Assembly: GCF_007741535.1 (NCBI RefSeq)
Contig: NZ_CP036525.1
Location: forward strand, 1,984,001 to 2,048,000
Direction: 5' to 3'
From: Rubripirellula lacrimiformis
GTDB lineage: Bacteria > Planctomycetota > Planctomycetia > Pirellulales > Pirellulaceae
DNA length: 64,000 nt
Under the pieces are notes generated by a model. It did no database searches. It saw only the letters and a list, made by a program, of their open reading frames with translations, and was not told where the DNA came from. This document shows, one piece after another, positions 699 to 20,588 of this stretch. Each line of letters opens with the position of its first letter. The stretch's first letter is position 1. Position numbers and translations under genes: made by a program.

Positions 699-1859
699 TT
701 AGCTGTATCGCATTTCTGCAAAAACGTCGTCCATGAAATTCAGCCATCCTGGCTGGTCTTCCACCCCATTCAATTCCAGATAGCGTGCCCTGTTAACGGT
801 GAACGAAAAAAGCGTCGATGGAAACCAAATGGAGAGTCCGTTCGCATTCGCGAGTTTTCTCGAGCGACGTAGCACTCGATTCTTGATGACTGCCTTGTTC
901 AGTGATTCGATCAGTCGCCGTGAGTATTTGCCAACGACCTTGCATTCGATCGCCTTGGAGAGATTTTCGGCAAAATGCACAGCGTCTACATACTCTGCGT
1001 TGGCAAAGGATTGCGATGACGCGCGTGCCATATCAATGGTGCGTATTGATTCTCTTTTCGTGCTGGCGTCCTGTGAGTCCAAATGGCTGGCGACTGCTTT
1101 TCCAAGTAGCGATAGAGATTTCATCGCTTCTCCTGTTCGTGTCAGTCGGATAGCTGACTGAGTAACATTCGTCATCCCGTGAAGCACGTAATGGTTGACG
1201 TATGAATCCACGATGTCGGAAGCGACATCGCAGACTTTTGGCTCATGCTTGAGATGCTCAAGCACTTTGTCGTATGGCCATCCCTCGCCAGGTTCAATCT
1301 GCTGTGATGCTACCAAGTAGTCAGCGAACTTAGAAAAGTGGTTGGCAATCTCAAGCATTCCCATCAAGCACGCATCAAAACCCAGTATCGCAATCTTTTT
1401 TTTGTGAAAGCCCACTCGCTCGAACACGTATTCGACTTCAGGCATATCGAGGGCTCCACCGAACTCGTCGATTGCGATCGCACGACGGCGTGATCGGAAA
1501 CCATCACCGTGTCCGCCGATGACCACTACCCGCTGGTCTGCTGGATAGCGATCGGTTCCCCAGGTCAAAAACTTCAGTAACGATTCCGGCTTTCCAGTGT
1601 CGGCCTCAGGCAACCGCTCAATCACATTTCTGTATGCAATTCCTTCCTCTTCTGGCTCCGTGATTTCGTACCGGATGGAGCCTGTGTGCTCACCTCTGGT
1701 GTCGATTTCGACGCCTACATAAACATCTGCTGATGCGCCAACTTTGCACAACTCAGCGATGTCACGAATCCCAGCATCACTTAGATCGTTATCGCCAGCC
1801 ATGAAAAGCAGAAGCGAATACCTCCGCTTTGCGCGTTTCTGTTTTGTGCGACTAGCCAC
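699..1859 (-). CDS. Clostripain-like cysteine peptidase (family C11)
   Basis: A 386-residue cytoplasmic-looking protein of the caspase-fold clan CD. The catalytic pair is visible: His117 in GGHGDG and Cys164 in FDACLMGMLE, the classic C11 signature. The fold begins near residue 13 (YSLLLFMAGDNDL), and the first 14 residues are strongly basic. C11 enzymes cut after Arg or Lys and are usually made as self-processing zymogens; whether this one self-processes cannot be seen. The start is GTG, with GAGG upstream, three bases after the stop of the S1 protease, so the two are probably co-translated. No signal peptide is visible, unlike secreted clostripain. Confidence 0.9.
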   Translation of the reverse strand: MASRTKQKRAKRRYSLLLFMAGDNDLSDAGIRDIAELCKVGASADVYVGVEIDTRGEHTGSIRYEITEPEEEGIAYRNVIERLPEADTGKPESLLKFLTWGTDRYPADQRVVVIGGHGDGFRSRRRAIAIDEFGGALDMPEVEYVFERVGFHKKKIAILGFDACLMGMLEIANHFSKFADYLVASQQIEPGEGWPYDKVLEHLKHEPKVCDVASDIVDSYVNHYVLHGMTNVTQSAIRLTRTGEAMKSLSLLGKAVASHLDSQDASTKRESIRTIDMARASSQSFANAEYVDAVHFAENLSKAIECKVVGKYSRRLIESLNKAVIKNRVLRRSRKLANANGLSIWFPSTLFSFTVNRARYLELNGVEDQPGWLNFMDDVFAEMRYS

Positions 1860-1862
1860 CGA

Positions 1863-2768
1863 CTACCTCATTTCCGCGATCGTTTCGTCAATCCAATCGC
1901 TGACGGAATCGACGCGAACATAGATGCCTCCGTCGCCGCAATTGTCGTTCGCTTCATCAGTCGCCCTTGATGTCGCCCCAGCAAGTTTTCGCTGACTGTC
2001 CACATGCACATATGCTGGACCTCCGCTGTCGCCGTTGCACGAGTCTTGCCCAGAACCCTTTCGACCCGCCACGAATTCTGTCATCGAATTGAAGCCAAGG
2101 GTTGATTCAGCGGCCGACAAGTTTTCCTGTGGAGTCTTTCTGACAACATTCATCGGCACGTTGACTTGTCGTTTGATTCCGAACCCCATTGAGCCCGCTG
2201 GGTTGTCGTTTCCGAATCCAACTAGTTCGATCCGACTCGCATTGGCGACTTCATCTGAAGTCGCCCTTGCAATCGGAGCCACCGTGGGCGCAGTTTGAAG
2301 AATCAGCAGCGCAATGTCTTCCGTCGGATGCTGCTTGATTCGCGAAATTCGCACAATGTTGGCTGGCTGCACATTGGATTCTTGCTCGACGCCAATTCCA
2401 ATCGAATTTGGGTCAAACCGACTGAAGATACAGTGGTCGGCTGTAATAACGAGTCGGGGATGAATGAGAGTACCAGTGCAGAACCACTCATTTAGAAACC
2501 CGCCAGCCGACGAGTTGCCAATGAGACAACATTCTGGAAATGCGCCAGGATCGACAGGGCGACCGCCAACTATTCGCTCAAGCTGATCTGCCATTCGACT
2601 TGCGCGACTCCGAGAGTCGTTGTCCGATGGGTCAGCGCGAAGGTGGTCGGAGAGTTGTTCAGACAGAAATCGAATTCGCTTGCTTAGCAATTCAATTTGT
2701 TCTCCTACATCGTGGCCTGTTGCACTGCGACCGCCGCAGTTGCAAGCACTCTTTTGATTCTTACGCAC
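1863..2768 (-). CDS. Trypsin-like serine protease (family S1) with N-terminal coiled coil
   Basis: A 301-residue protein with a complete chymotrypsin-fold triad: His112 (VITADHC), Asp151 (EDIALLIL) and Ser248 (GDSGGP). The mature-domain start IVGG lies at residues 66-69 after a ~64-residue N-terminal part that has paired Cys near residue 10 and a heptad-like helix (about residues 22-65). This resembles a zymogen, where cleavage after Arg65 would free the Ile N-terminus. The C11 enzyme next door has Arg/Lys specificity in its family and could do this; that is inference. The start is GTG behind a strong AGGAGG site. No export signal is visible. Confidence 0.9.
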   Translation of the reverse strand: MRKNQKSACNCGGRSATGHDVGEQIELLSKRIRFLSEQLSDHLRADPSDNDSRSRASRMADQLERIVGGRPVDPGAFPECCLIGNSSAGGFLNEWFCTGTLIHPRLVITADHCIFSRFDPNSIGIGVEQESNVQPANIVRISRIKQHPTEDIALLILQTAPTVAPIARATSDEVANASRIELVGFGNDNPAGSMGFGIKRQVNVPMNVVRKTPQENLSAAESTLGFNSMTEFVAGRKGSGQDSCNGDSGGPAYVHVDSQRKLAGATSRATDEANDNCGDGGIYVRVDSVSDWIDETIAEMR

Positions 2769-2818: not shown

Positions 2819-3748
2819 TTAGTTGCCTTTTTGCACCGGGGGATCAGGCTGAACGTCTGGAGTTGGCACAGGATTCGGCACTGGCGTTGGAACGGGATTC
2901 CCTGGTGCGCCATAGAGTGCTCGCGCCCCCGCGATATCAAGCGGACTGAGGTCTCCATTGTTGTTGTACAGTGGGTTACAGTAGTTCATAATCGAATCAG
3001 GATCGTAGACAGTTATGAACCAATCTCCGTCACTGCCTTGTCGCTCTCGCTGACACCAAAGAGGTGCATCACTCCGATTTTGCTCGTGAGCAAAACTGAT
3101 GGCATGGCCAAATTCATGCACCGCGATGCTCTCGATCGAAGAACGTCGATTCGCTCCACCGCATGCTGGACACCAATTGCCGAAAGTAAAATTCAGCACC
3201 ATCCCATTTCGCATACCATCGAGACCTCTGCCCAACGCCTTTACATGAGGTCCATCATCAGCGATGAGAATCCGAATTCCCGTTGAGCTTGCCTGCGATT
3301 GTCCCCAGCCAGTGAACTTGAGTCCCGACTCAGCTTGCCATGTCCGCGTGATCGCATCCTGAACCCATTGGCGTTCCTGAGCATTCGCGGGTGAAGGATT
3401 CTCCCATGTCACTGGGATGGTCGCACTGGGCCAAATCGCACGGCGGAGCGGAAACGCACGGTCTTGTGCCCGATTGGAACCTGGGTCTCGAATTCGCTCA
3501 ACGAGTGAGATTTGGAGTCGCTGCATAGCGATCTTGAGACGCAAATTTTCCAGCTCTAGTTTTCTTGCTTTCGCAACGGCATCCGCGACAGCCGATTCTG
3601 CTGCCAGTCGTTCGATGGCAGGGTTATCGACTTGAGAATCGGAGCCATACGGAAGCGACCTGTCAGGTAGAGTTGCCTCCTGTGCGAACAATGGCACTCC
3701 CACTAGGCAGATCAAAACAAACAAACACCATTTTCGTGTATCGAGCAT
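2819..3748 (-). CDS. Secreted zinc metalloprotease (HExxHxxxxxH, matrixin/astacin-like)
   Basis: A 309-residue protein with a signal peptide (hydrophobic residues 8-22, likely cut after FAQ). Residues 45-85 form a probable coiled coil, and the catalytic domain spans about 100-275. The zinc site is His211-Glu212-His215-His221 in HEFGHAISFAH, followed by a Met-turn at SIMNYC (Met254), so it is a metzincin-type enzyme. The C-terminus is a proline/threonine linker (PVPTPVPNPVPTPDV) with no domain after it, so it may be a tail or a cell-surface spacer. The ATG has GGGAG upstream. It is the only protease of the trio with a clear export signal. Confidence 0.87.
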   Translation of the reverse strand: MLDTRKWCLFVLICLVGVPLFAQEATLPDRSLPYGSDSQVDNPAIERLAAESAVADAVAKARKLELENLRLKIAMQRLQISLVERIRDPGSNRAQDRAFPLRRAIWPSATIPVTWENPSPANAQERQWVQDAITRTWQAESGLKFTGWGQSQASSTGIRILIADDGPHVKALGRGLDGMRNGMVLNFTFGNWCPACGGANRRSSIESIAVHEFGHAISFAHEQNRSDAPLWCQRERQGSDGDWFITVYDPDSIMNYCNPLYNNNGDLSPLDIAGARALYGAPGNPVPTPVPNPVPTPDVQPDPPVQKGN

Positions 3749-3780: not shown

Positions 3781-5283
3781 CTACGGAATCGAAATATCGT
3801 GTGTTGCACCAAAGAACACTTCTGTTGCCGATTGCTCGGGTCGCAGCCCAGGCTGAGCAACTGCCCGCGATTCACCTCGAGTTGCACGATCCGTCGGCGG
3901 AAACAGTAACCGGACAACCTGTTTCATCGTGTCGACATCGAAACCTTGTTGTGGCTTAGCCCACGGCTGGTCGTGCTCGACCCAGTTTTCGCTTTGAAAC
4001 CACGGCAGGCCACCGATATCAACTTGCCGAACTTCGCCAGGGTGAGCTGCTTCGTGAGCCGCGAACCAATCTTCGATCCGGTCATCGACCCAGCCGTGCA
4101 GACGCCAGAAAACGGGATTCACGTGCGATGAGTAAAAGTCGCCAAGGTAATCGTTACTCGGATCAGCCCATCGGCTGTCGATATCGCCAATGCCACGACC
4201 AAGCGGAACCTTGGTTCCATCAGGCAGTCGTGGAACGGACGCCCATCGCATGTGCATGTCATTGTGAATGGAGAATTCGACCAACGCGCCGAGTTGTCCC
4301 AGAGTGAGCTTTGCAAGTCGTTCGGGATTCTTGAATTCACGATCCCACCACTGCATGCGCGACCAGTAGTATTCATCGCTTTTGAGTGCGTGAATGCGAC
4401 GCTCAAGGTTGACGACGCCGGGCCAGTGCCAAGCTGGCGGAACGACGAATCCGTCGGGATTGCCGGGCGCAGGATGCGACGGATTGCATTCTGCGAAATC
4501 TGGTTCAGCACGCACAGACCCCGGCTGTGGAGGGCTGGACCAATGTTGAATCGGATCTAACCCTGCGTGATGCATCATGTGCCTAACGTGTGAGATCATC
4601 TCCCGGTGCATGTACAGAAAGTCGATTCCTGAGCCGTTGTTGACGGCAATCTTCCCTGACTCCGTTCCTAGTCGCGGCGGTTCCCAATTCAGATCCCGAA
4701 TCTGCTGGCGCGTTTCATCCGAAACGTCAGGCGAGAGCCAAAACTGTCGTAGCGAATGCCACAGCAAATGATGCAACCGGTGCTTTTCACCCGCCAGCAT
4801 TCGGATCACCGAGTCGGGCAGCGGGATGACTTCTCTGGGCTCTGGAAATTCCTGGGCTACAGCAACGAACGATCCAACCACACCCGCTGGTGCTTTACCA
4901 TGCGGAATACTGCGGATGACCGTTCCGACAATCGCGGGAACCTGGTTAACTCCATCGGGCCATTCCGGCGCAAAATATCCTATGTAATCGTAGACCCAAC
5001 CCTCAGCACTCGTGCCAGCGACCCCCGTTCCGCGGAGGCGAATCCGATGGGGTGTCCCGTGTTCGATTCTTCCAACCATCTCTAGCCGAGCATCATCGAC
5101 ATTCGGCGGATCACTGCGGAACGCCAGTTGCCCCAGAACATCATCGTGCCCGACCACTGGATCGAAAATCAATACGCCTTGTCCAAACAACAAGCGATCT
5201 TCAAGCGGCAACTTTGGGTCAACCTGTTCCTGCACGTTGTGAAAACTGCGGTAGATCCAGGTTCCCGTCAAAATGCTGCTCAT
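3781..5283 (-). CDS. PvdP-like tyrosinase (N-terminal beta-barrel plus type-3 copper domain)
   Basis: A 500-residue protein. Residues 1-145 look like a lipocalin/streptavidin-type beta barrel (GTWIYRSFHN, then alternating strands). Residues 165-440 are tyrosinase-like: His171, 172 or 176, His226 (FLYMHREM) and His235 for CuA; His340 and His344 (HNDMH) and His396 (NPVFWRLHGWVDD) for CuB. All six copper ligands can be placed. This two-domain layout is that of the pyoverdine maturation tyrosinase PvdP, but no siderophore genes are near. By family it would hydroxylate or oxidise phenols, perhaps tyrosine in a peptide. No signal peptide is visible, so its copper source and compartment are unclear. 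Confidence 0.78.
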   Translation of the reverse strand: MSSILTGTWIYRSFHNVQEQVDPKLPLEDRLLFGQGVLIFDPVVGHDDVLGQLAFRSDPPNVDDARLEMVGRIEHGTPHRIRLRGTGVAGTSAEGWVYDYIGYFAPEWPDGVNQVPAIVGTVIRSIPHGKAPAGVVGSFVAVAQEFPEPREVIPLPDSVIRMLAGEKHRLHHLLWHSLRQFWLSPDVSDETRQQIRDLNWEPPRLGTESGKIAVNNGSGIDFLYMHREMISHVRHMMHHAGLDPIQHWSSPPQPGSVRAEPDFAECNPSHPAPGNPDGFVVPPAWHWPGVVNLERRIHALKSDEYYWSRMQWWDREFKNPERLAKLTLGQLGALVEFSIHNDMHMRWASVPRLPDGTKVPLGRGIGDIDSRWADPSNDYLGDFYSSHVNPVFWRLHGWVDDRIEDWFAAHEAAHPGEVRQVDIGGLPWFQSENWVEHDQPWAKPQQGFDVDTMKQVVRLLFPPTDRATRGESRAVAQPGLRPEQSATEVFFGATHDISIP

Positions 5284-5392: not shown

Positions 5393-7897
5393 TCAGTAGC
5401 CAGCACCGATGTCGAGTTCCGATGGCAAGAGACGTAGCGTGTTGTAGTTTTCGATTTCGTCGGAAGTGAATTCTGCTTCGAGGGCTTCGAGTTGCGATTT
5501 CATTCGATCGTGGGCGTCTCGGTACTTTTGATTGACTTCGGGGTCTTTAAGATCCTCGAAGACGTTTTTGTAGTCAGTGGCTAGTAGCGTGTAACGAACT
5601 CGCGAAGTCGCCATCGCGACGCAAGCGAGTGAACGCCATTCGTCGACGCCGTAGGTGCCACCATCTTTGGGGACTTGTACTTTGTTGATGCGTGGATCGA
5701 GCGCTAAGCGGACGCCGGATGTTCCGTAGACTTCGTGGCGGATGATCAGATGATGCATCATGTCGGCAATGAACCTTGCTAGACCTGATCGTGTTTTTAG
5801 TTGGTCGAAACGATTGGGAAGCGGCTGAGCGTAAGTTGCTGCCAGATTGGCAAACAACACTTGCACGCACTCGTCGGATGCGACATTCGCATCGCTGGTG
5901 TAGACCGCTTCGACCAAGCTGGTCGCGTATTCCAGCCAGATCGCAGCGTATTGCTTTTCCCAAACCAGGCTTGATCTGGGTAGAACGTTCTCCAGGGCTT
6001 GGCCGTCGCGTCCTGCTAGCAGTACTTTCTCGCGGCGCTCGAAGTCTTCGTCTTCTGCCAGCTCGTATTCGCCAAATCGGTCGTTTAAGTGCCGCATCAA
6101 TGATGCGTTGGTCGTCGCGAATATCTGCGGAAAGACGGCGTTGTCTTCCAACAGGTTTTGGGTCGTTAGTTCTTCGGCTAGCTCATGGGCGAACAAATGC
6201 GGGTAAAGAGCGAGTCGGACGGGATGAAACCACTGCCGTTTGGCGTCGAACGAGTTGAACAACGCGACTTCGATCAGATTCAAGCCCATGTGGATTTCGA
6301 CGAGATGCTTTCCGCTGACGACATAGAAGTAGACGGTGGCCAGAATCATGTCCTCGGCATGGCGGAACCTCGCGTCAGTCGGATCAACAGACAATTCAAT
6401 ATCGGATTTCGGAGCCTGAACGTGAGTCAGTTTCAGGCAGTGATTGGCGTCGTCGATCTCGAAGTACGCGACTCCGCCATAAGACTCGTAGTCGGCTTTC
6501 GTCTCGTACTTTTCAAAGAACGACAGGTCCATCACAAAGGCTTGCTTACCATCTCGGATGATCGGCTGGATGAACGTGCCAGCGGTGCCGTATTCGACCA
6601 GGAAGGCTAAGAGCTGGCCTTGACTGTAAGCTTCGAGTACGGTTGGCGGCGTGGGCTGGAAACCTGGGCCGCGAACACCTGACTCAATTGAAAACCAGCC
6701 GAGTGTCGGGAGGTAGATGCGCTGAAGAAACTGCTTCGGCCAGTAGTTGCTACCGTCGCTCCACGGTTCCATTCTCGGTTTCAATCGCAGTGGCACGTCG
6801 ATGTTCGCGATTGGGAAGACACGATTGACCATGCTGGCCGCACCGAAAGCGAACTTCACTAACCTCGTGATCATTCCGAAGGCATGAACCTTCAACGTCA
6901 GTGCTTCATCCAGGCAAGGAACGCTGACTGGATGGGTCAAGTTGCGCGGATGGGCAATGTAGTAGGGGAGCAGCCCCAGCGGCTGAAGTTCGCTCTCACG
7001 TCCCGCGTATAGTTCGCCCAGACGCTCGGGTCTTGGAACACGCATCCCGCCTGCTATGAACAAATAGAAGTACGGCCAAGTCGCTCCGGAGATCATCGAA
7101 CGGAACATGGCCCAGGTTTGCGGAAGTAGATAGAAAGCCAGGGCCATCCCAGCCGGAATCGAGACGAGCAACCGCAGTCCAATTCCTATGATTCCCTGAT
7201 GAGCCTCGGCGGATGCATCAAACTCAGTCCGTAAACCGAAGTACAGCAAGGCAACGACAACCGTCGCAACGAGATGAAAGACCGTGCTTCGGCGTGGCGT
7301 TTGCGAACCGATGAAGGTTGTCGCGTAGAGCCCAATTGCTGCGACAGCGAGTGCAGTTCGCCCCCATACTCCTCCCTGCAATCCGCTGGACGCGAACATG
7401 AGTATCAGCAACGCGATCAATCCGACCGTCAGGGTTGCTGCGCCGATTTCTTGCGGACCTCGAAAGAGAAACAGAATAAGCAAAAAACCAGTGACGGTGC
7501 CAACCAAAGCCGTCACCCATCCTGAATGACCAAACGCACCGAGCGTCACCAGTCCGTAAGCCAGATAGACCGAGCCGAACACAAACGCAATGTTGCCGAG
7601 CCGAATGGTTTGAATGAAACGCCCCATGGCGGTTCCCAGCAATTGATAAGGTGCATTTCGGATCAGCAACCAAGTTTCGTAGAGGAACCCAATGCCACTT
7701 CCAAACGCGGTGAACCAAAACGGGGCGCCCACCCACAACGGCAAGTCAGGCAGATTGATGATCGCCAAAAGCGAAGCGACAAAGAACACCAGCAAGCTTC
7801 CAGCGGAAAACCAAGCGTCCTTCGTGTTGAAAGTCGGCGGCACCGGTAGCGTGAATTTTTCCGGCCCCGGCGGCGTGATATGGGTATTGGCTTGCAC
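5393..7897 (-). CDS. Multi-pass membrane protein fused to a lipoxygenase-like domain
   Basis: An 834-residue protein with a GTG start. Residues 30-285 hold about eight hydrophobic segments. Residues ~370-834 resemble a lipoxygenase: His531-x4-His536 (HLVEIH), then HPVRLALYPH (His558, His567), which matches the HPIYKLLTPH block of plant and bacterial enzymes. A later HLIIRHEVYG block (His716) lies where the third iron His and its neighbouring Asn occur; the Asn position holds Arg720. The C-terminus (LRLLPSEL...GAGY) echoes the family's end but lacks the terminal Ile that ligates iron. It may oxygenate membrane lipids with altered iron coordination, or be inactive. Fusion to a polytopic membrane domain is unusual. 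Confidence 0.72.
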   Translation of the reverse strand: MQANTHITPPGPEKFTLPVPPTFNTKDAWFSAGSLLVFFVASLLAIINLPDLPLWVGAPFWFTAFGSGIGFLYETWLLIRNAPYQLLGTAMGRFIQTIRLGNIAFVFGSVYLAYGLVTLGAFGHSGWVTALVGTVTGFLLILFLFRGPQEIGAATLTVGLIALLILMFASSGLQGGVWGRTALAVAAIGLYATTFIGSQTPRRSTVFHLVATVVVALLYFGLRTEFDASAEAHQGIIGIGLRLLVSIPAGMALAFYLLPQTWAMFRSMISGATWPYFYLFIAGGMRVPRPERLGELYAGRESELQPLGLLPYYIAHPRNLTHPVSVPCLDEALTLKVHAFGMITRLVKFAFGAASMVNRVFPIANIDVPLRLKPRMEPWSDGSNYWPKQFLQRIYLPTLGWFSIESGVRGPGFQPTPPTVLEAYSQGQLLAFLVEYGTAGTFIQPIIRDGKQAFVMDLSFFEKYETKADYESYGGVAYFEIDDANHCLKLTHVQAPKSDIELSVDPTDARFRHAEDMILATVYFYVVSGKHLVEIHMGLNLIEVALFNSFDAKRQWFHPVRLALYPHLFAHELAEELTTQNLLEDNAVFPQIFATTNASLMRHLNDRFGEYELAEDEDFERREKVLLAGRDGQALENVLPRSSLVWEKQYAAIWLEYATSLVEAVYTSDANVASDECVQVLFANLAATYAQPLPNRFDQLKTRSGLARFIADMMHHLIIRHEVYGTSGVRLALDPRINKVQVPKDGGTYGVDEWRSLACVAMATSRVRYTLLATDYKNVFEDLKDPEVNQKYRDAHDRMKSQLEALEAEFTSDEIENYNTLRLLPSELDIGAGY

Positions 7898-7915: not shown

Positions 7916-8614
7916 CTAAAGGTTCGCTTCAAAGAATTGAATCGTTTCGCGAAGCGATTGATCCCTGGCAGTGCTATTTCCCGAATCGCTGCCCAAGAAT
8001 CCGTGGACGGCCCCTGGGTGCTTCGTCATGGAAACAGTCGCCCGCTCGCGTACGAGCTGTGATTGAATCGGATTAGCGTTTTGCATGAGAGGAACAAGGG
8101 AATCACTTTCACCGTGGTGAATGTGAACTTTGAGCAGCCTGTTTGCATTGGTCCCAATGCCATCAACCTCAGGAAAAGTGAACGGTGAAAAATACTCCAC
8201 GAGCACGTCGACCGAGTCTCGTATGCGCAGACTCAAGAAACCACCTAGTGAAAATCCAAGAAGCCCGACTTTGGAAGAGTCAATGCCCGGAAGAGTCTTG
8301 CAGGCATCGACTGCGTCTCGCAGAACGATCGCCCACGATCCATGACGCAGCGGGATTTGAGGAAAGACAGTGAGCGACGAGTCGTGAGAAGTAGACGGAG
8401 ACTTTTGAAAGTAGTCCGGCGTCAGTGCAAGGATTCCAACAGCGGCGAGTGCCTTCGCATGACGCTCGATTTCTGGCTTCCATTTTGGAGCAAGTCCATC
8501 ACTGCCATAGGCAATGATCACGGCGCTGTCATACGTGGTTGCGGGTTCTTCAGCCGTCCAAGAGATATTCTCGGTTACTGTGCCTGTGCCAGTCGGAAAG
8601 GTCGTGGGGATCAT
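7916..8614 (-). CDS. Dienelactone-hydrolase-like alpha/beta hydrolase
   Basis: A 232-residue alpha/beta hydrolase. The nucleophile elbow is GFSLGG, the acid is probably Asp in HHGESDSLVP, and the base is His in GAVHGF near the C-terminus. True dienelactone hydrolases use Cys as nucleophile; here it is Ser, which points to a general esterase or lactonase. The ATG overlaps the stop of the flavoprotein gene by four bases (ATGA), so translation is coupled. In this cluster it could open a lactone or ester made by the oxidases, but no substrate can be read from the sequence. No signal peptide is visible. Confidence 0.82.
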   Translation of the reverse strand: MIPTTFPTGTGTVTENISWTAEEPATTYDSAVIIAYGSDGLAPKWKPEIERHAKALAAVGILALTPDYFQKSPSTSHDSSLTVFPQIPLRHGSWAIVLRDAVDACKTLPGIDSSKVGLLGFSLGGFLSLRIRDSVDVLVEYFSPFTFPEVDGIGTNANRLLKVHIHHGESDSLVPLMQNANPIQSQLVRERATVSMTKHPGAVHGFLGSDSGNSTARDQSLRETIQFFEANL

Positions 8615-9762
8615 GCTATGCCATTTTCAAAGGAGGACTTGATGGAGTGAAGATTTCTGCAATTTTTTGGCTCGGAATCAACGCTCGTCCGCCGTTGCCA
8701 AAAGACTTGATCCTCCCAGCGAGTTTCCCGCTGGTGTGTCAACCGACTTTGTTCGGTAGATTCGCGAGCGAGGCTGTGAATCAAGTCTCCAAAAAAACGA
8801 CTTGTCGCGAAATCACTGCGTTCTGATACGACGCTTTCCGCCGCAGCTATTCCCGTTTTGAGCGCGCGGATGATTCCGTTGCCAGAAAGAGGATCGAGCG
8901 AGATGGCAGCGTCGCCAATCGCTATCCACCCCTCTCCAGAACTTTCATCAAGCCAACTCGTGTTCGCATTCACAAGACGCAGGGGTTCCAGCAATGATGT
9001 TGCTTCGATGCGTTGGGATGTGTGTGGCAAACGGCGAACCAAGTGTCTCCACCAATCTGTTCGTTCGTTGACATGACGGGGAATCAAATCCGCGTCCGTT
9101 AAATACGCAACGACCAATTGATCGTTTGGAAGCCCCGCGGAGTACCACCAACCGCTCGGCGCTGACTCGATCAATAGTCGCGGGTCGTCGAGGTCACTTG
9201 TTCGCATATAGCCAACCAGCGCCATCAAACGATTTCCAGGAACTCGCGTCGCACCCAGCCGTGTCGCGATCGACGCCGACCGTCCCGTTGCATCAACGAG
9301 AATGTCCGCTTGATAGGATTTCGATCCAATTTGAACATTCCAAACAGTCCCAGATTTTGATACTCGCATCGGACCAGCGGGGCGATCGACGTGGCAGCCT
9401 CGACCGGCACATTCGCACAGCAGCATTCGATCGAAATGGGCGCGATCGAGATTCCAACCCTGTGAGAACGGTTGGAAAAGGAAACTTGATACTGCGGTTT
9501 TGTCGCTGCCCCATGCGGATACGATTCCAGACGTCGGTTCAAAGTCCTCACGCTTGAATTGATCCCACACGTCAAGTGTTTTCAGTAGCCCTTCGGCTTC
9601 TGGCAACAACGCTTCGCCCACGCGACTCGTGCTGAATGAGCTTCTTTCAAGAATTGTGGGTGTGCATCCGTTTTGCATCAGTCGCAGCGCCATCGCACAG
9701 CCCGCTGGACCGCCTCCCACAATCAATACGTCCGTCGGATCTCTCACACTTGTTTCGCCCAC
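8611..9762 (-). CDS. LodB-like FAD-dependent oxidoreductase
   Basis: A 383-residue flavoprotein of the halogenase/geranylgeranyl-reductase/PHBH superfamily. It has an FAD Rossmann motif (VGGGPAG, residues 15-21) and the second FAD motif GDAAISLDPLSGNGI near residue 290. The halogenase signature WxWxIP is not visible. It starts with GTG five bases after the LodA-like gene. LodB proteins are partner flavoproteins needed to build the cysteine tryptophylquinone cofactor of LodA by hydroxylating its Trp, and they are encoded beside lodA. I assign this role from family and adjacency. A substrate monooxygenase of a biosynthetic pathway remains possible. Confidence 0.82.
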   Translation of the reverse strand: MGETSVRDPTDVLIVGGGPAGCAMALRLMQNGCTPTILERSSFSTSRVGEALLPEAEGLLKTLDVWDQFKREDFEPTSGIVSAWGSDKTAVSSFLFQPFSQGWNLDRAHFDRMLLCECAGRGCHVDRPAGPMRVSKSGTVWNVQIGSKSYQADILVDATGRSASIATRLGATRVPGNRLMALVGYMRTSDLDDPRLLIESAPSGWWYSAGLPNDQLVVAYLTDADLIPRHVNERTDWWRHLVRRLPHTSQRIEATSLLEPLRLVNANTSWLDESSGEGWIAIGDAAISLDPLSGNGIIRALKTGIAAAESVVSERSDFATSRFFGDLIHSLARESTEQSRLTHQRETRWEDQVFWQRRTSVDSEPKNCRNLHSIKSSFENGIA

Positions 9763-9767
9763 GCTTC

Positions 9768-11342
9768 TTAAACCAAGAACATTCCATCTGGGTTACGTTC
9801 AGTCTCGATGTACTCTCCGTTGGACTGGGCCACGACGCCTAGTTCGTGCCATCGTTCAACCATGTCCTTATGGTTTGCGATCTTGTCCCGATCCCATTCC
9901 AATTGCGGCCCACCGGAAGCAACCAGAACTTCATCGGGTCGCTGAGCGGGCCACCAGCCGTTGCGGCACTTCAAGAAGTCTGCCTGCCAAGGCATGGCGT
10001 TGTCCTGAGTCAGGTAGCCCGCCGGACGATCATCGTTCGCGGATTCAGGACGCAGGCGAATCTCTACCGCGACGTTGCTGCTGTCCGCTTGATAGATGTC
10101 CGGACGAGTGGCAACGATGCGATTGACTTCGATGCCAGGGAAAAACGAACCGCCCGTGCAGTGTTCCAACGCGGCCTGGTCAAGTCCCCACGCCGTTACG
10201 TTGGAACTCAATGCAGGGATTCCGCTCCAATCTCCAACAAACAACCCGTCCTTCCACTGCTTCATCAGGAAGTACTGCAAGGGACGAAGTGTAAGCCCGA
10301 CTGGATTCACTTCGCCGTCTCCATTGAGCCTCGGCATGTTCCCGGTTGTGTTCGGATTGTCGGGGTCGCGAAGCTTGTGAAAGATCAGCTCCCGCAACGA
10401 CTGGTGTGGGTCATTTCCAGGCGTTGGTACAAACGACAAGTCATTGAAGGCTCGCAGCATCACATTGGCGTGCCCCATGTTCGCAACACGACTCACCCAA
10501 CCTTGCTGCGAGACGCGATGGAGGATCGGATAGATTTCGTTTGTGAACGATGGGCGGTAGGTGGAATCAAACGCTCCGCCCGAAAATAGGTTCGGGGCAA
10601 ACGAGAATTGACGAACCACCAAATCGAGCATCAGTTCATACAGCGTGACGATATTGCCCACACCGGGTGCGTAATCAGGCGGGCCAACGATAATCCATGC
10701 CTGCTCCGCTTGAACGGTTGTGCCATCGCTCAGCTGGATCGTTGCATTGATTGAACCGTCAGAAGTGTCGTCGTACCAAAAGCGATTGTTCGCAAAGTTC
10801 AATCCACCGCCAGCAGAGTAGCCGCCTTGCTCTCCGGGCTTGACGACGAAATTCGACGTGCCGAAACCGCCCGCCACAACGAGGTTGCCGCTACTTTCGG
10901 TCGAGGCGTGACCAAGCGGAACGACTTTACCGCGAAACTTCCCATCGTCGAACGCAACCGATTGCCCCGGCGCGCTGAGCGTCTTGGCCGACGGAGCGAT
11001 GACGAGTTCGCTTTCCGAGATACCTGGATTGCGAGGCGTGTTACCGCCACTGAGAATCACGTTGCCAGCCGCCTTGCGATTGGCGAGCTTCACCGTCCAA
11101 GAAATATTCTCAACTTCACTGTGCGACGTTGTGACTTCAAGCGGCTCGGCAGTCGGGTTGTCTGAGTCGTACTCAAACACTCGAAATCGAGCAGCCTGTC
11201 GTTTCAATCGCCCGTCGGCCTTGAACGCACCGCCGATGGGCGCTGGCTCGGTGCCGGGAATTTCAGGGCCAATGAACGTTTCCATGCTATTGCCAACACG
11301 AGCGACTCCAATAGCCGGATGAATGCGATAGGACTTCGCCAT
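9768..11342 (-). CDS. LodA/GoxA-like quinoprotein amino acid oxidase (CTQ family)
   Basis: A 524-residue protein that opens with the hallmark YRIHPAIGVARVGNS and FIGPEIPG. The cofactor-forming Cys is probably Cys395 (ALEHCTGGSFFPGIE), and the Trp partner lies in the conserved segment MPWQADF...WWPAQRPD (Trp452-Trp464). LodA makes lysine 6-semialdehyde and GoxA oxidises glycine; both release ammonia and hydrogen peroxide. The substrate cannot be told from sequence. LodA of Marinomonas is longer (over 700 residues), so this is a compact member. There is no signal peptide, although LodA is known to reach the medium. The peroxide it makes would feed the haloperoxidase two genes upstream. Confidence 0.9.
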   Translation of the reverse strand: MAKSYRIHPAIGVARVGNSMETFIGPEIPGTEPAPIGGAFKADGRLKRQAARFRVFEYDSDNPTAEPLEVTTSHSEVENISWTVKLANRKAAGNVILSGGNTPRNPGISESELVIAPSAKTLSAPGQSVAFDDGKFRGKVVPLGHASTESSGNLVVAGGFGTSNFVVKPGEQGGYSAGGGLNFANNRFWYDDTSDGSINATIQLSDGTTVQAEQAWIIVGPPDYAPGVGNIVTLYELMLDLVVRQFSFAPNLFSGGAFDSTYRPSFTNEIYPILHRVSQQGWVSRVANMGHANVMLRAFNDLSFVPTPGNDPHQSLRELIFHKLRDPDNPNTTGNMPRLNGDGEVNPVGLTLRPLQYFLMKQWKDGLFVGDWSGIPALSSNVTAWGLDQAALEHCTGGSFFPGIEVNRIVATRPDIYQADSSNVAVEIRLRPESANDDRPAGYLTQDNAMPWQADFLKCRNGWWPAQRPDEVLVASGGPQLEWDRDKIANHKDMVERWHELGVVAQSNGEYIETERNPDGMFLV

Positions 11343-11362: not shown

Positions 11363-14239
11363 TTAAACCTGTTGAACGCGGAAAATGTCGCCGCCGATTG
11401 AGACGAGATAAAGTTCGCCTTGTGCGTCTTCCCCAAAAGAGACGATCGAGTTGATCGCAGAATTGGCGTTTAATTCAGCCGTTCGTTCAACGTGATTGGA
11501 AACGCTAGAGCCGTCGTAGCGGAGGGACCAAATCCGATTGGAAAGAAAGTCTGCATAGAAGTAGGTGCCTTGCAGTCCCGCGATTGCCTCGCCGCGATAG
11601 ACGTATCCGCCAACGATCGAGCGCCCGTCACTGCGACCGTATTCGTGAATGGGATCGACGAGATTCGGCTGATCGGGATCAAGTCCCGTCAGGTTTGTGC
11701 CTTCGCGAATACGCCAACCGTAATTCTCGCCGCCACGGCTATTCGCGTTCTGGAAATTGAGTTCTTCGCGGGCTGACTGACCAACATCACCCATCCAAAG
11801 ATCGGCGGACAAACGGTCAAAGCTGCAACGCCATGGGTTACGCAAACCAAGTGACCAAATCTCTGCCCGTCCAGCACCACTTGCCGCAAATGGATTCGTG
11901 GGCGGTATGCCGTAGTTCATATCGGCGGCGGCCGGAAGATCGTCACGGTCAACGTCGACACGAAGCATCTTACCAAGCAATACGTTTGTTTCCTGAGCGT
12001 TGCCCATCGGATCGTTTGACGAACCTCCATCACCCATCGCGATGTATAGCAAGCCGTCGGCCGGACCGAACCCGATCCAACCTCCGTTGTGATTGGTGAA
12101 CGGTTGGTCGACGACCATTACGTTGTGCCGACTATTGGTGTCCGCAAGACCGCTGGACGCGGTGTATCGACGAATCGTTGTTCTGCCAACCGCGTCTGTA
12201 CAGTTCACAAAGAAGTGGCCGTTATCTTCATACTGTGGGTGAAACGCCAAGCCCAGCAAGCCTCGTTCTCCGTTGGTGCTCAGATCGTCAACTTGAATGA
12301 AGGTCTGAACAAGCTGTCCATTGGAAGCGTCTAGCACTTGAATCGCACCCGTCTTTTCGACGATATAAAGTCGATCGGGTTTACCAGGGGCGAAGGTGAC
12401 GAACAACGGCTGCGTCAATCCAGTTGCAAAACGATTTGCGACGATTCCAGCGGCACTGGGAACCACAGCGCCAGCTCGTGCGACTGCTGCCGGACGAGCC
12501 GCCGCTACGATTGCTGGGGCATTGCCGCCGACAGCGCCGGACGCAGCCAAGCTACGTATCCAACGATCAACGACTTGAATCTCGTCGTCCGAAAAATTCC
12601 CTGACATCACGCCCGTGGTGATTTGGATATAAAAACCACTTTGGCTCGGGCTTCCGGGGACTACCAACGGCTTGCCCACCGCAGGAGGACGTTTGGCATT
12701 GGTCGAAGTCAGGAAACTGACGATGGCATCATAGTTCTCAGCCGAGAACAGCTCGTTCAGGCTGCCGCCAGCCGGAATTTGCACACCGCTGTGCATGAAT
12801 TGAGCGATCCCTTGTTTCGATTTCAAAAGTTCCAAGAAGTCCGCCTTTGCCTTGGTGCCATCGCCGGGAGCTGGCGGTGGATCACTCGGATCATCGGGCG
12901 TCTGCGGTGGTGTAACCGTTTCGGAAAACTCAAGGGCGGATTCACGAATGGTATTTACAAAGTCTTCCAGGTTCGTTTGAAACGGAGGCACGCTGGTCGT
13001 TTGCGCAAGCAGATTATTGATAGCGTCGACGATTTCCACGTAGGTTCGCCACTGAGCGGACTGCGAATGCGGGAGCGCCAACGTGTAAGGCATTGCAAAC
13101 GGTGGCCCAGCCTTTCGTTCTCTGCCTTGCGTATCGGCCTGGGGAGGATCGTGTTGCGGTCGAGTCTGTAGAAATCCAATGACCTCACGCAGACCAGGGA
13201 ATTGCATCATGCCAAATGCCCAACCAATGACCGTCGTACGCGCCGTCGTTCCCTGTTCCAGAACCAGCGAATGTGCGATTCCGTGGAGCAGCAACCGATA
13301 TTGCAAATCGGCAATGTGCGCCCAGCGGCGACTCTCCGCATCGGTGATTCGTCCAGCTTCCATGTCCAAATCCTGGTGAGGCTGCTCGGACGTATTGGGA
13401 TTGGTCGGCATCGGACGACTTGGATTCCAAGTCGTTGTGGCCTCAAGTTCCTCGTAGATCGTACGGAATTTTTGGTAGTGCGATGTGACAGCCGTGTCGC
13501 CACCTTCGCCCTGCTCAGCGATCTCATTGGCCAGCGCCCTGGCCTCGCTTAGACTTGAGACGGGTCGGACAATTCGCTCACTGAAGCCTCTCCATTCAAT
13601 CGCGGTCGCTTGAAACGTGGTAGCGGATTCCGGATAGATATCGTCTTCCGTCAACGTAACCAGCAATGCATCAATTTTTTCAAAGAGGGATCCAACGCGG
13701 TTGATCGGCATCCCTCCTTGAGCCCCCGTCGCGCGGTCAATGATCGCCTGCAGCGGTGCATCTGCAACGATGTCAGGCATCTCAGCCACGACATACTTTG
13801 CCAACGAGTCGAGTGAGATCGGTTCGAGTTTGAAGTGAAACGGATAGAATAGGTCGCGAAACGGAAAGTCTTCACGTTCCAAATTCACAGGACCACCAAG
13901 CAGCAACAAAAGATTTTGCATCGAGATCAGGTGAGCCATCTCTTCGATCGCGATTTCAACGATCGCTCTCCGCCAGCCGCCCGCTTTCGCTTGTTCGGTC
14001 GGACTCGGCCCCGCAGTCGCATCAATCGAATAGGCGGCATAGAGATACTGCACGAGCAACGACTGTTCAATTTCGGCAGCGGTTTGCAGAAGAAAGATTG
14101 CTTCGTCTCTGGCAGTCAGCTCGCCGTCAACGACAAGGTCTTCCGTCGCATGCGTAACGGGAGTCACACCGTCAGCAGCAGCTCTTGCGACCGCCCGACC
14201 TCTTCGTTTGCGGAACGAAATGCGTGGACCTTTAAGCAT
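11363..14239 (-). CDS. Three-part fusion: ferritin-like (VioB-type), haem-less cytochrome-like and glucose/sorbosone dehydrogenase domains
   Basis: A 958-residue protein; I take the ATG at 14239 rather than the preceding TTG. After a basic N-terminus (RKRRGRAVAR), residues ~35-330 are a ferritin-like four-helix domain of the type found in VioB/RebD: EIEQSLLVQYLYAAYSI and EEMAHLISMQNLLLLLGG carry the metal-binding Glu and His. Residues ~470-580 look like a planctomycete cytochrome-c-type domain without CxxCH. Residues ~605-955 are a PQQ-type sugar dehydrogenase propeller (LTQPLFVTFAPG, GERGLLGLAFHPQY, NHNGG, MGDGGSSNDP, LGLRNPWRCSFD). By family, the domains would handle an oxidation at a di-iron site and an aldose oxidation. 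No signal peptide is visible, although sugar dehydrogenases are normally exported. Confidence 0.83.
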   Translation of the reverse strand: MLKGPRISFRKRRGRAVARAAADGVTPVTHATEDLVVDGELTARDEAIFLLQTAAEIEQSLLVQYLYAAYSIDATAGPSPTEQAKAGGWRRAIVEIAIEEMAHLISMQNLLLLLGGPVNLEREDFPFRDLFYPFHFKLEPISLDSLAKYVVAEMPDIVADAPLQAIIDRATGAQGGMPINRVGSLFEKIDALLVTLTEDDIYPESATTFQATAIEWRGFSERIVRPVSSLSEARALANEIAEQGEGGDTAVTSHYQKFRTIYEELEATTTWNPSRPMPTNPNTSEQPHQDLDMEAGRITDAESRRWAHIADLQYRLLLHGIAHSLVLEQGTTARTTVIGWAFGMMQFPGLREVIGFLQTRPQHDPPQADTQGRERKAGPPFAMPYTLALPHSQSAQWRTYVEIVDAINNLLAQTTSVPPFQTNLEDFVNTIRESALEFSETVTPPQTPDDPSDPPPAPGDGTKAKADFLELLKSKQGIAQFMHSGVQIPAGGSLNELFSAENYDAIVSFLTSTNAKRPPAVGKPLVVPGSPSQSGFYIQITTGVMSGNFSDDEIQVVDRWIRSLAASGAVGGNAPAIVAAARPAAVARAGAVVPSAAGIVANRFATGLTQPLFVTFAPGKPDRLYIVEKTGAIQVLDASNGQLVQTFIQVDDLSTNGERGLLGLAFHPQYEDNGHFFVNCTDAVGRTTIRRYTASSGLADTNSRHNVMVVDQPFTNHNGGWIGFGPADGLLYIAMGDGGSSNDPMGNAQETNVLLGKMLRVDVDRDDLPAAADMNYGIPPTNPFAASGAGRAEIWSLGLRNPWRCSFDRLSADLWMGDVGQSAREELNFQNANSRGGENYGWRIREGTNLTGLDPDQPNLVDPIHEYGRSDGRSIVGGYVYRGEAIAGLQGTYFYADFLSNRIWSLRYDGSSVSNHVERTAELNANSAINSIVSFGEDAQGELYLVSIGGDIFRVQQV

Positions 14240-14290
14240 CAATCTCTGCCAGTCGTGAAGGGGGAATTTTGTTCACTTGGTCGTTCAGCG

Positions 14291-16192
14291 TCAAACGACG
14301 GTCGATAGCGCCTTTGCGATGTCACACTCCGAGGCCTCAAGACACCGACCGCGTTTCAGCTCTGGCAGGTTCAGTTTCTTGCCGGCGAACTTGACTTGCC
14401 CTGAGTGAATTTCGATCGGCTTGCCGCCGAAACTGTTGAACTCGATGCAGTATTCCTCGGTGTAGGTCGCGCTCTTGCGATACAGCATGTCGATGGCGAC
14501 CCGCTGACCAAGCAAGACGCTTTGCGTGTAATCGCTGCGCCAATGGACGCCGGCCATGTTGCGACCGGTTGCGATGTTCGCGGCAAGTTTGTTCAGCTCA
14601 AGTTCGACGGTCATCTTGCCGCTGTGCGCGTCCATGCCTTGATACGGTACAAGGTGCCCGCCGTCGGCAGTTGATTCGACCGGTCCGATGAACTGAACGC
14701 TGCCATCGAAGAAGGATTTCAGCACGGTCACGCACGCACCGGCGACTGTTGCGTGCCCGGCTCCGTAGGATGGATGAGTCGGCGATCCTTCGGGATAAGC
14801 CATCGGCAGCAACGCATTTGGCTCAGGACGATGACCACGACCGCGGCGTTTTCCGCGAGAAGAAGTGAGCCGATCCAGCGCGCTACTGGCTCGCAGAATT
14901 CGCTCGACTTCGATGTCGAAATCTTCGTAAGGCACTGGCACTTCATCGACAATCGAGCGATGGACCAAAGCGGCATAAGCTTCGGGACGCAGTCGTAGAT
15001 GGGTCCATTTTTGTCGCCACACGGCTTTCAATGCCCGAGTCGCAACCTCGGTGACCTGAGAGAGAACCTGAGGACCGCCGAATGTGCCAAAACCGTCTTG
15101 ATCTGGGTATTTTGGTGCCCCGCGATTCGCTGACTTTAGGTATTCCTCGTGTTCGTGCGGCCGCTGATCCTGCCCGGTTCCCATCACGCTGCATCCGGGC
15201 CCGTAAGGATTGCCTGGATTACTCGGGTATCCACCGCCCAGCAAAATTAGAGCCGCATTGAGATAGGCCTCGTAGAGAGCGTCATAATGCACGTAGGTTG
15301 CCAGATCTCGCATCGTCGATAGATATCGTCGTTGAGACGGATCGTGTTGGCCCACCAAGTTTTGATTCGGATTTCTTCTTTCGCCGTCTTGGACGTGAAG
15401 CCATTCCGACCAATCCGTCATGTAGTCGACACCTGCTGCGGCATGAATGCATCGCTGTGGAATTCGCAACGTGCCATAAGGGATTTCGTGAAGTAAAAAC
15501 TGCGAAAGATAAGGGCCGACGTTCTCCGAAATTCCGGCATTTTTGTCAGCAAATCGCGCCAATTCGCCGCCACGGAATAGACTCTTCGATGTAACAGAAA
15601 GCGTCTCGAAGCCAGATGTCGTTGGATCTCCGTTAGGATCGTCACGGTTGACAAACAAAGGCAGAGTGCTGATCTCACCCGCGGCCGCGGCGACCATCGG
15701 ATGATCGTCCCACTGCGCGAACGGCACATCACGCAGTATCGCCATCCAGTACAGTTCGATCATCTCAGCCGCCTCTTCCTGGCTGTTCAAATCCGGCGGC
15801 GCGGGGATTTCGTAACAGCATGGATCGGTAACTTCGGTATCAAGTGACCAACCTGATTGCGGATTCACGAAACGGCGCAGCGAGTCACAAGTCTTGTTAC
15901 GCAGTTGAAATTTACGCTTCGCGGCTTGTCCAGGATCCGCGTTCAGCTTCTTGAGCTGATCTACCAGATTCTGAAACTGCGATGCATTCACTTCGCCAGT
16001 GGTCGGATCATGGTCAAGGCCCTTCGAGAATCTCGCTGTTGGGCTTTCCGCCGCAACAGTCAGTCTCGCGCCAAAAACGCTACGGCAGTCTTTCGCGGCA
16101 GTGGCAGTCTTTCGCTGCGTCGTTTTGGTCTTTCGTTTCGTCGATGCTTTCGGTTTTTGTGTTGACTTTCGCGCTGTCTTTTTCTTCGACAT
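14291..16192 (-). CDS. Vanadium-dependent haloperoxidase with lysine-rich N-terminal tail
   Basis: A 633-residue protein from the ATG at 16192; a longer TTG-start version lacks a ribosome site. The vanadate pocket of the PAP2/haloperoxidase fold is clear: Lys395...Arg402 (KWTHLRLRP), HPSYGAGH ending in His480, and Arg544...His550 (RNMAGVHWRSD). The Ser that bonds vanadate in SGH motifs is Ala here. The enzyme would use hydrogen peroxide and a halide to make hypohalous acid. Residues 2-40 are a Lys/Thr/Ala tail (KKKTARKSTQKPKASTKRK) like histone H1 tails, suggesting polyanion binding. No Sec or Tat signal is visible, whereas many haloperoxidases are exported. Confidence 0.87.
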   Translation of the reverse strand: MSKKKTARKSTQKPKASTKRKTKTTQRKTATAAKDCRSVFGARLTVAAESPTARFSKGLDHDPTTGEVNASQFQNLVDQLKKLNADPGQAAKRKFQLRNKTCDSLRRFVNPQSGWSLDTEVTDPCCYEIPAPPDLNSQEEAAEMIELYWMAILRDVPFAQWDDHPMVAAAAGEISTLPLFVNRDDPNGDPTTSGFETLSVTSKSLFRGGELARFADKNAGISENVGPYLSQFLLHEIPYGTLRIPQRCIHAAAGVDYMTDWSEWLHVQDGERRNPNQNLVGQHDPSQRRYLSTMRDLATYVHYDALYEAYLNAALILLGGGYPSNPGNPYGPGCSVMGTGQDQRPHEHEEYLKSANRGAPKYPDQDGFGTFGGPQVLSQVTEVATRALKAVWRQKWTHLRLRPEAYAALVHRSIVDEVPVPYEDFDIEVERILRASSALDRLTSSRGKRRGRGHRPEPNALLPMAYPEGSPTHPSYGAGHATVAGACVTVLKSFFDGSVQFIGPVESTADGGHLVPYQGMDAHSGKMTVELELNKLAANIATGRNMAGVHWRSDYTQSVLLGQRVAIDMLYRKSATYTEEYCIEFNSFGGKPIEIHSGQVKFAGKKLNLPELKRGRCLEASECDIAKALSTVV

Positions 16193-16324
16193 GACTAATT
16201 CCGCTGATTTGATTGCTCGACTTTGATTGCTCGACGTCAAAGATGAAGTGAGTTTCAAGGAGATTGTGACTCAGTCGTCTCGCCAATCTACGGAAGCAGA
16301 TAGGAACGACTAGAACGGGTTTTC

Positions 16325-17212
16325 TTAGTCTGCCGCGGCAACAACAGATGGCCGAGACAACTCCGTCGCATCCAGCCATTCTTCCGAGAATAGGCACCAG
16401 AAATCGCGAGCGAGATAGTTACAAACGAAGCTGGCAGGAAGCCATCCATACCCATTGTCTCCCCATTGCTTTCCCCATGAGCTGCGAATCAAGATCGCGT
16501 CTTGATCCGCACCAACGCGATTCAATTGGTATCCAACTGCGACAACAGATTGACCACCGCGCGGTGCGTCATGGGCTTTGCGAAAAAGAATGTCGGGACC
16601 ATCAGCCAATGACGAAGGCACAGAGAACCCGAACAAGACTGGAAAACCGGCCGCAAGGAAGGATTTCAACGCACGCCATGTCTCTTGACCACTACATCCA
16701 TCATCGACAATACGAAAATACCGAAGGGCCTTCGGGGCCGTTGCCAGCGAAAGCAGAAACGAGCTAGGTTCGGATCGAAAAGCTTCGATACTGTATGGCC
16801 AGTATTCTTCCGGCGGGACGCCAACCTGAGCAAGTACTTTCAAGGTGGTCCTCAAATCCGCGCCTGAATCAGCAATATCTCGCCCTGCTTTCGCAATTCT
16901 GTGTCGTGTAGCTTGATAAAGAAACAGGCGTGAGCCATCGTAGGTCCGTCCGGCAACACGCCGCTCAAAATACTCAACCGCAGACAAGACCGCGAACGCA
17001 GATGAAGCATTCAATGTTCGTTGGTCATCTACTGCCGTGAAATACTCTGTGTCGCAATCGCAGCGTAGATCAACTAGGTCGGGTTGTTCGGAGTCCAGCA
17101 TCTCCGGCAGGTCTAGAAGTAGACGCTGAACCTCAGGGTGTCGAAACGTGAAGTCGCGTCCATCGGGAAGGTCAGGTTGCCAACCCAATCCTCGCGGCAC
17201 AAATTTAGCCAT
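16325..17212 (-). CDS. Papain-fold (C1) protein without catalytic residues: likely pseudoprotease
   Basis: A 295-residue protein; ATG at 17212 chosen because MAKFVPRGLGWQPDLPDGRDF is the usual opening of bacterial C1 proteins, while the longest frame starts at a TTG. The fold signatures remain, but every catalytic position is changed: DQ...NASSAFA in place of DQ...GSCxAxA (Cys to Ser70), GGQSVVAVGY in place of GGHAVxxVGY (His to Gln221), and IRSSWGKQWGDNGYGW in place of the NSWG motif (Asn to Ser244). It is probably a binding or scaffold protein, not an enzyme. It is the first gene of the cluster, 132 bases upstream of the haloperoxidase, so it may be made in largest amount. Confidence 0.82.
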   Translation of the reverse strand: MAKFVPRGLGWQPDLPDGRDFTFRHPEVQRLLLDLPEMLDSEQPDLVDLRCDCDTEYFTAVDDQRTLNASSAFAVLSAVEYFERRVAGRTYDGSRLFLYQATRHRIAKAGRDIADSGADLRTTLKVLAQVGVPPEEYWPYSIEAFRSEPSSFLLSLATAPKALRYFRIVDDGCSGQETWRALKSFLAAGFPVLFGFSVPSSLADGPDILFRKAHDAPRGGQSVVAVGYQLNRVGADQDAILIRSSWGKQWGDNGYGWLPASFVCNYLARDFWCLFSEEWLDATELSRPSVVAAAD

Positions 17213-17385
17213 AGCGATCTCGTGATTGAATGCACATCGAGGCATAAAACGCTTCTCTAAACGTCTATTCAATCGCTAGGACAGAAATTGGCTACGGAAT
17301 AGAATGGGAACGCTCCGCGAGTAACGCGATTTTCACATGAAGGACTCCACGCAACTGAGTTAGAACAATGCATCATTCAGTGATC

Positions 17386-20573: not shown

Positions 20574-20588
20574 TTGTTGGAGCAAACC

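Follow-up and report, generated by a model that had tools for sequence, protein, structure and literature searches.

The window, by which we mean the whole 64,000-nucleotide stretch of DNA analysed here, covers positions 1,984,001-2,048,000 of the single-contig genome (8.54 Mb) of Rubripirellula lacrimiformis. Between 2819 and 16258 it carries a run of genes, all on the minus strand, which we refer to as the oxidase cluster. Within this run lies the gene for a membrane protein with a lipoxygenase (LOX)-like C-terminal part, here called the membrane-LOX gene. The features are as follows:

2819..3748, minus strand: secreted-looking zinc metalloprotease (PF01400 Astacin, E 2.8e-5; signal peptide seen by eye)
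3781..5283, minus strand: PvdP-like tyrosinase (NF051454, E 1.4e-85, 288 bits, below the cut-off of 625)
5393..7897, minus strand: membrane LOX-like protein gene (open reading frame of 834 aa, GTG start)
7043..7897, minus strand: polytopic membrane domain of that protein, residues 1-285 (from hydropathy; without a Pfam match)
5396..7042, minus strand: its lipoxygenase-homologous domain, residues 286-834, 549 aa (from hhalign and a LOX-like model)
7916..8614, minus strand: dienelactone-hydrolase-family protein (PF01738, E 7.4e-16)
8611..9762, minus strand: LodB/GoxB-like flavin maturase (NF038171, E 2.2e-72, below cut-off)
9768..11342, minus strand: LodA/GoxA-like quinone amine oxidase (LodA_N, E 2e-54; LodA_C, E 3.2e-23)
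11363..14242, minus strand: protein with ferritin-like (VioB-type) and glucose/sorbosone dehydrogenase domains (PF12902, PF07995)
14291..16258, minus strand: weak PAP2-superfamily match, possibly of the vanadium-haloperoxidase type (PF01569, E 1.9e-4, below cut-off)

The start codon of the membrane-LOX gene is uncertain by a few codons, and the copy in the related genome G537 has an ATG seven codons upstream. Searches of Pfam, NCBIfam and the PDB sequences with the 834-aa protein returned no LOX and no match indicating a function. The Pfam lipoxygenase model PF00305 did not match the protein even at E <= 10, nor did it match anything in the window's own genome (0/1). Two PDB entries, one named 'Hemolysin' (E 0.019, residues 60-147) and one P450 (E 0.85), were taken as chance hits.

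We searched whole genomes with the protein or with its family profile. Relatives were found in three of 241 genomes of the family (its own, G537 and G591) and in two of 392 genomes of the phylum (its own and G071). The copy in TBK1r (CP036432.1, L003), an organism of the same family as that of the window, and the one in G591 were counted once. At E <= 0.1, ten of 397 class genomes gave a match: the organism itself, G725 (E 8.7e-66) and eight weak ones (12-15 bits, E 0.015-0.09), the last taken as noise. In G725 the match is an incomplete copy that runs into the end of a contig (L010/L019) and lacks the LOX half; it was kept out of every alignment. In L010 (1-1310) this copy is frame-broken and adjoins what looks by eye like the end of an insertion sequence. 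The full-length relatives share 80, 84 and 53% identity with the window protein; the layout of a membrane part followed by a soluble part is common to them all, and the last six residues, DIGAGY, are the same in all four proteins. No relative was matched on plasmids. Among viral contigs 12 stretches fitted a pattern, none of them a relative, and patterns made from the window sequence alone, with which only close relatives can be detected, found only TBK1r among the genome contigs and nothing outside the Planctomycetota.

For comparison with lipoxygenases, two reference sets were assembled. PF00305 was present in four of 294 phylum genomes and yielded six true planctomycete LOX (L020-L025). Seven LOX came from plasmids of other phyla (7 of 9 matches, with Pseudomonas and a third Rhodococcus left out; the Burkholderia protein entered with its last 720 residues only). 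When the C-terminal alignment of the four-member family was compared with the six planctomycete LOX, hhalign gave a probability of 85%, E 5.9e-6 and a score of 52.1 over 303 columns. Column shuffles of this comparison (n = 100) scored 17.0 on average (sd 2.8, maximum 23.2), and the reversed alignment scored 21.9. Residues 286-834 compared with the same six gave E 7.2e-6 over 362 columns. Against the seven LOX of other phyla the family reached E 2.9e-6 (score 54.9), and against all 13 it reached E 3.9e-9 (score 75.0); the maxima of 60 shuffles per set were 26.9 (six LOX), 29.7 (seven LOX) and 23.2 (13 LOX). As decoys we took eight unrelated neighbour families from the same gene clusters, which scored 14.1-21.4 against the membrane-LOX family and 13.8-23.8 against LOX. 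The lowest values, E 1.2e-4 and a score of 42.7, came from the subset of five non-planctomycete LOX that remain when the two divergent ones are dropped.

The membrane-LOX protein shares with the LOX family (PF00305; the planctomycete members and those of Nostoc, Acaryochloris, Rhodococcus and Pantoea) a catalytic domain of the same length and order, the HLxxxH and HPxxxLxxPH blocks, a third histidine and a conserved Leu, and the C-terminal ends align in MAFFT. The pairwise identity is only 15-18%, which is below Pfam detection. Judged by the Pfam model the protein is outside PF00305, whereas profile-profile comparison places it in common ancestry with that family. From these alignments we conclude that residues ~400-830 are homologous to the LOX catalytic domain, and it is very likely that this homology is combined with a fused membrane domain. 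The original prediction had been of a lipoxygenase-like domain joined to a polytopic membrane part, with the HLVEIH and HPVRLALYPH blocks aligning with the LOX core. The first part is upheld by the profile comparison with its controls and by the retention of the whole gene in four genomes, the second by hhalign and MAFFT alignments, the hhalign scores exceeding those of the shuffle and reversal controls.

The model of the full protein built from three relatives had a pLDDT of 37.5 and was unusable; without LOX rows in the alignment, no LOX appeared among the 50 matches listed for it, and nothing reached E <= 0.001. Residues 286-834 modelled from four relatives and six LOX rows gave a pLDDT of 52.3 and a pTM of 0.53; in the central and C-terminal helices some stretches reached a pLDDT of 70-90. 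All 50 PDB matches listed by Foldseek for this model, which was built with LOX rows, were LOX (best E 1.8e-7, TMq 0.42), and so were all 50 listed by VIA-align (Z 14.2-16.5, rmsd mostly 6-8 A), where most alignments extended to the last residue. Since the LOX rows guided the model, the result is circular and indicates compatibility with the LOX fold, not proof of it. An unrelated fold in which the two His blocks are not close together had been named beforehand as the outcome that would speak against lipoxygenase kinship. This outcome did not occur: the only usable model resembles LOX alone, but it was made with the LOX rows.

The membrane domain was delimited by a 19-residue Kyte-Doolittle scan, which suggests about eight segments within residues 29-258 (about 29-48, 58-78, 102-122, 126-145, 149-170, 177-197, 203-223 and 237-258). 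The predicted number of about eight holds when the relatives are included; in the window protein alone six distinct stretches exceed the threshold of 1.6, helices 2 and 6 passing it only in relatives. With helix boundaries set by hand, the K+R count on the side of the C-terminal domain was 10, 10, 11 and 10 in the four proteins, compared with 0, 3, 1 and 2 on the other side. Because of this charge bias, the positive-inside rule predicts that both ends of the membrane domain, and with them the LOX domain, are cytoplasmic. An unfused membrane module was not found in the 241 family genomes, which hold only the three fused genes. A weak partial match to the module (E 0.004 per genome over 241 genomes) was taken as chance, and a rhodopsin-like bundle, suggested by a best Foldseek E of 0.045 on the pLDDT-37 model, was treated as meaningless.

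The residues that matter for a LOX-type metal site are listed below:

6290..6307, minus strand: HLVEIH, residues 531-536, with the predicted metal ligands His531 and His536 (aligned with LOX His)
6197..6226, minus strand: HPVRLALYPH, residues 558-567, the LOX 'HP...LL.PH' block (from the alignment)
6152..6166, minus strand: residues 578-582, including Thr578 and Leu582 (from the alignment with LOX)
5735..5737, minus strand: His721, predicted third histidine ligand (from MAFFT and hhalign)
5723..5725, minus strand: Gly725, at or beside the LOX Asn694 position (invariant in 4/4)
5396..5398, minus strand: Tyr834, C-terminal residue, predicted carboxylate ligand (invariant in 4/4)

His531 and His536 fell on the two central-helix histidines of LOX with all five LOX sets in hhalign and in all four MAFFT modes, and they are invariant in the four membrane-LOX proteins. 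The pair of histidines five residues apart on a long central helix, characteristic of LOX, is thus present as predicted ligands; we take the two to correspond to H499 and H504 of soybean LOX-1. In the second block H558, P559, P566 and H567 paired in hhalign with the H, P, P and H of LOX. HE or HQ before the first ligand is absent, unlike in the LOX family. The third histidine ligand would be provided by His721, presumably the counterpart of soybean H690: it was placed there by all four MAFFT modes and by hhalign with three of five sets by default and a fourth with -mact 0.1, whereas with the fifth, which includes Aureibacter, the register slipped by four, to Gly725. The Aureibacter plasmid LOX (L041 2365-4206) is itself very divergent and has Gly, not His, in the third-His column.

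Four residues after the third histidine, where soybean LOX-1 has Asn694, all four proteins have Gly725, and MAFFT with all 17 sequences put this glycine within a few residues of the Asn694 position. The fourth ligand of LOX is Asn, or His or Ser in some. Nostoc LOX has Gly in the Asn column too. The original prediction had identified the Asn of the third block with Arg720, but this needs His716 as the ligand and no alignment gave His716. That assignment is wrong because the wrong histidine was taken; Arg720, moreover, is not conserved, being Gln in L002. At the positions that correspond in LOX numbering to Gln697 and Gln495, the protein has Gly728 (Ser in one relative) and Val527, respectively; the Gln697 column holds Ala or Gly in some LOX as well. 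Thr578 occupies what we take to be the stereocontrol (Coffa) position, which is filled by Ala or Gly in 11 of the 13 LOX, by Ser in one and by a gap in another, and Leu582 is presumably the conserved active-site Leu. Taken together, the alignments indicate that the second-shell residues of LOX are altered in this protein.

In the four MAFFT modes Tyr834 fell on the terminal residue of each of the 13 LOX, whereas hhalign -glob paired Ile830 with the LOX C terminus and left GAGY overhanging. LOX iron is bound by the terminal carboxylate, not by a side chain, and the terminal residue is usually Ile. A Tyr terminus therefore need not abolish metal binding. Replacement of the terminal Ile by Tyr had also been foreseen; it holds in all four proteins and is less drastic than it seemed, as the 13 LOX themselves end in I, V, T or G. 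The three candidate His ligands, the exact C-terminal end and the fusion of the membrane and LOX parts are conserved, and it is likely that the protein binds a non-haem metal.

The coding sequences were also compared. In the LOX half pS was 0.625 and pN 0.070 against G537, and 0.771 and 0.107 against TBK1r; the membrane half was somewhat looser, with pS/pN of 0.610/0.128 and 0.640/0.151, respectively. Synonymous differences are near saturation and non-synonymous ones few, and the gene is under purifying selection. This speaks against a decaying gene, although a non-catalytic role is not countered by it. In such a role, the LOX fold would bind metal or lipid but not oxygenate, acting as a membrane lipid sensor, a carrier or a scaffold of the oxidase cluster. 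The loss of the Asn694-type residue and of both glutamines, together with the Thr at the stereocontrol position, would fit this. However, none of the four proteins, down to 53% identity, has lost any of the three histidines or differs in its exact C-terminal length, and the Asn and Gln697 positions drift in annotated LOX too, since Nostoc has Gly and others Ala or Gly there. We consider a non-oxygenating protein unlikely, if worth keeping in mind.

The gene neighbourhood bears on the question of substrate. The oxidase cluster is conserved in L008 and L003; its gene order is closely kept in G537 and is kept in TBK1r with a changed LodA section. The G537 cluster has an adjoining gene of the animal-haem-peroxidase type (PF03098). 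In TBK1r (L003 2567-9254) the LodA section consists of a 1032-aa ferritin-like protein, the later part of which looks LodA_N-like by eye, and of a separate protein of 257 aa that LodA_C matches weakly; a radical SAM protein comes next, then a flavin oxidoreductase. This rearranged section recalls quinone maturation of the QHNDH type. Three peptidase genes flank the cluster in the window (702-2768 and 16325-17272), namely clostripain-like, trypsin-like and papain-like ones. Near this rare cluster, at 20574-21809, there is an open reading frame that by eye resembles a tyrosine recombinase (integrase). The GC content of the cluster stretch is 54.6%, compared with 57.9% at 22-64 kb of the window, which fits a recent gain.

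The PvdP-like tyrosinase occurs in exactly the same three of 241 family genomes as the membrane-LOX gene. This strict co-occurrence, along with the LodA/LodB-like, ferritin-like and dienelactone-hydrolase-like neighbours, would suit a LOX-fold enzyme of the cluster that acts on a non-fatty-acid substrate, such as an aromatic metabolite, one derived from an amine, or a cluster intermediate linked to a lipid, with the membrane part serving as an anchor only. LodA-like operons with tyrosinases have been published (PMC4417212), and the genes near the membrane-LOX gene resemble them in combining LodA-like, LodB-like and tyrosinase-like members; in contrast to the window cluster, the accessible part of that paper mentions no LOX-like or membrane-LOX gene. 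On the other hand, the G071 relative has no oxidase-cluster neighbours within the 20 kb covered. A flavin amine oxidase and a TPP enzyme are encoded there instead, along with a protein that weakly matches reprolysin-type metalloproteases. A polytopic membrane part also suggests a lipophilic substrate. A cluster-specific substrate of this kind is in our opinion doubtful. As for the view that there is no LOX kinship and that an unrelated helical membrane protein has histidine blocks resembling those of LOX by chance, the lack of matches in Pfam, NCBIfam and PDB sequences and of LOX among the matches listed for the model without LOX rows agrees with it, but profile scores of 52-75 with two non-overlapping LOX sets, where shuffles reached at most 23-30 and decoys 14-21, already leave it disfavoured and highly improbable.

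The reading that we favour, with a probability of roughly 0.55, is that of a divergent oxygenase with the lipoxygenase fold, carried by a membrane anchor of eight helices. The protein is probably a metal-binding polytopic membrane LOX-like protein with altered second-sphere residues, and activity as an oxygenase on a membrane-derived substrate seems slightly better than an even bet. His531, His536, His721 and Tyr834, the last through its C-terminal carboxylate, would hold one non-haem metal, iron or possibly manganese. With the LOX domain on the cytoplasmic face, a hydrophobic substrate would arrive at the site from the membrane, hydrogen would be abstracted and O2 added, as in LOX. Since the usual small stereocontrol residue, the Gln network and the Asn ligand are missing, we expect the reactivity of the metal or the product to be unlike that of classical LOX. 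A PfaA-type PUFA synthase scored above cut-off in only one of four genomes (G071), so a home-made PUFA is not a general substrate; for the same reason, the substrate in the window organism is more likely to be a lipid taken up or some membrane polyene that is not a home-made PUFA.

LOX, which oxygenate lipids, are known as soluble or membrane-touching enzymes. The LOX family has soluble helices where the membrane-LOX protein has a polytopic N-terminal domain, and the latter protein differs further in the glycine at or near the Asn position, the Thr at the stereocontrol site and the Tyr C terminus. The secreted LOX of Pseudomonas aeruginosa (PDB 4g32, a phospholipid complex) represents a phospholipid-associated bacterial LOX fold; the residues 286-834 model, built with LOX rows, aligned with it at a VIA Z of 16.0 (rmsd 7.0, 386 residues aligned). 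We take that enzyme to be soluble, exported and equipped with classical ligands, whereas the membrane-LOX protein is polytopic. A C-terminal LOX domain also occurs in the allene oxide synthase-LOX (PDB 3dy5) and in a Burkholderia stagnalis FAD-oxidoreductase-LOX, but the fusion partner there is a soluble enzyme and here a membrane domain. The B. stagnalis gene (L040 634-4611) is on a plasmid and is annotated as an FAD-dependent oxidoreductase of about 1325 aa. No description of a polytopic LOX was found in the accessible parts of the literature on planctomycete, membrane-bound or fused LOX. Bacterial LOX are rare, occurring in less than 0.5% of sequenced species according to the accessible part of PMC6612559.

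The membrane-LOX protein thus appears to work like lipoxygenases and to descend with them, yet it escapes the Pfam model and departs from the Asn-ligand rule. We tentatively propose, as a possibility short of an even chance, an integral-membrane LOX subfamily in which a lipid-facing module of eight helices forms a permanent fusion with a LOX domain in the cytoplasm, its site made of three histidines and a C-terminal Tyr carboxylate but no Asn ligand, and which oxygenates membrane polyenes in place as a step of a planctomycete oxidase pathway. If this is true, a polytopic membrane LOX would change how the substrate gets to the site, and the family would test in nature how much drift the ligand set and the second shell tolerate. 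It would also mean that there are LOX relatives which current family models do not reach. The membrane-LOX gene points, in addition, to an unstudied oxidase cluster of planctomycetes.
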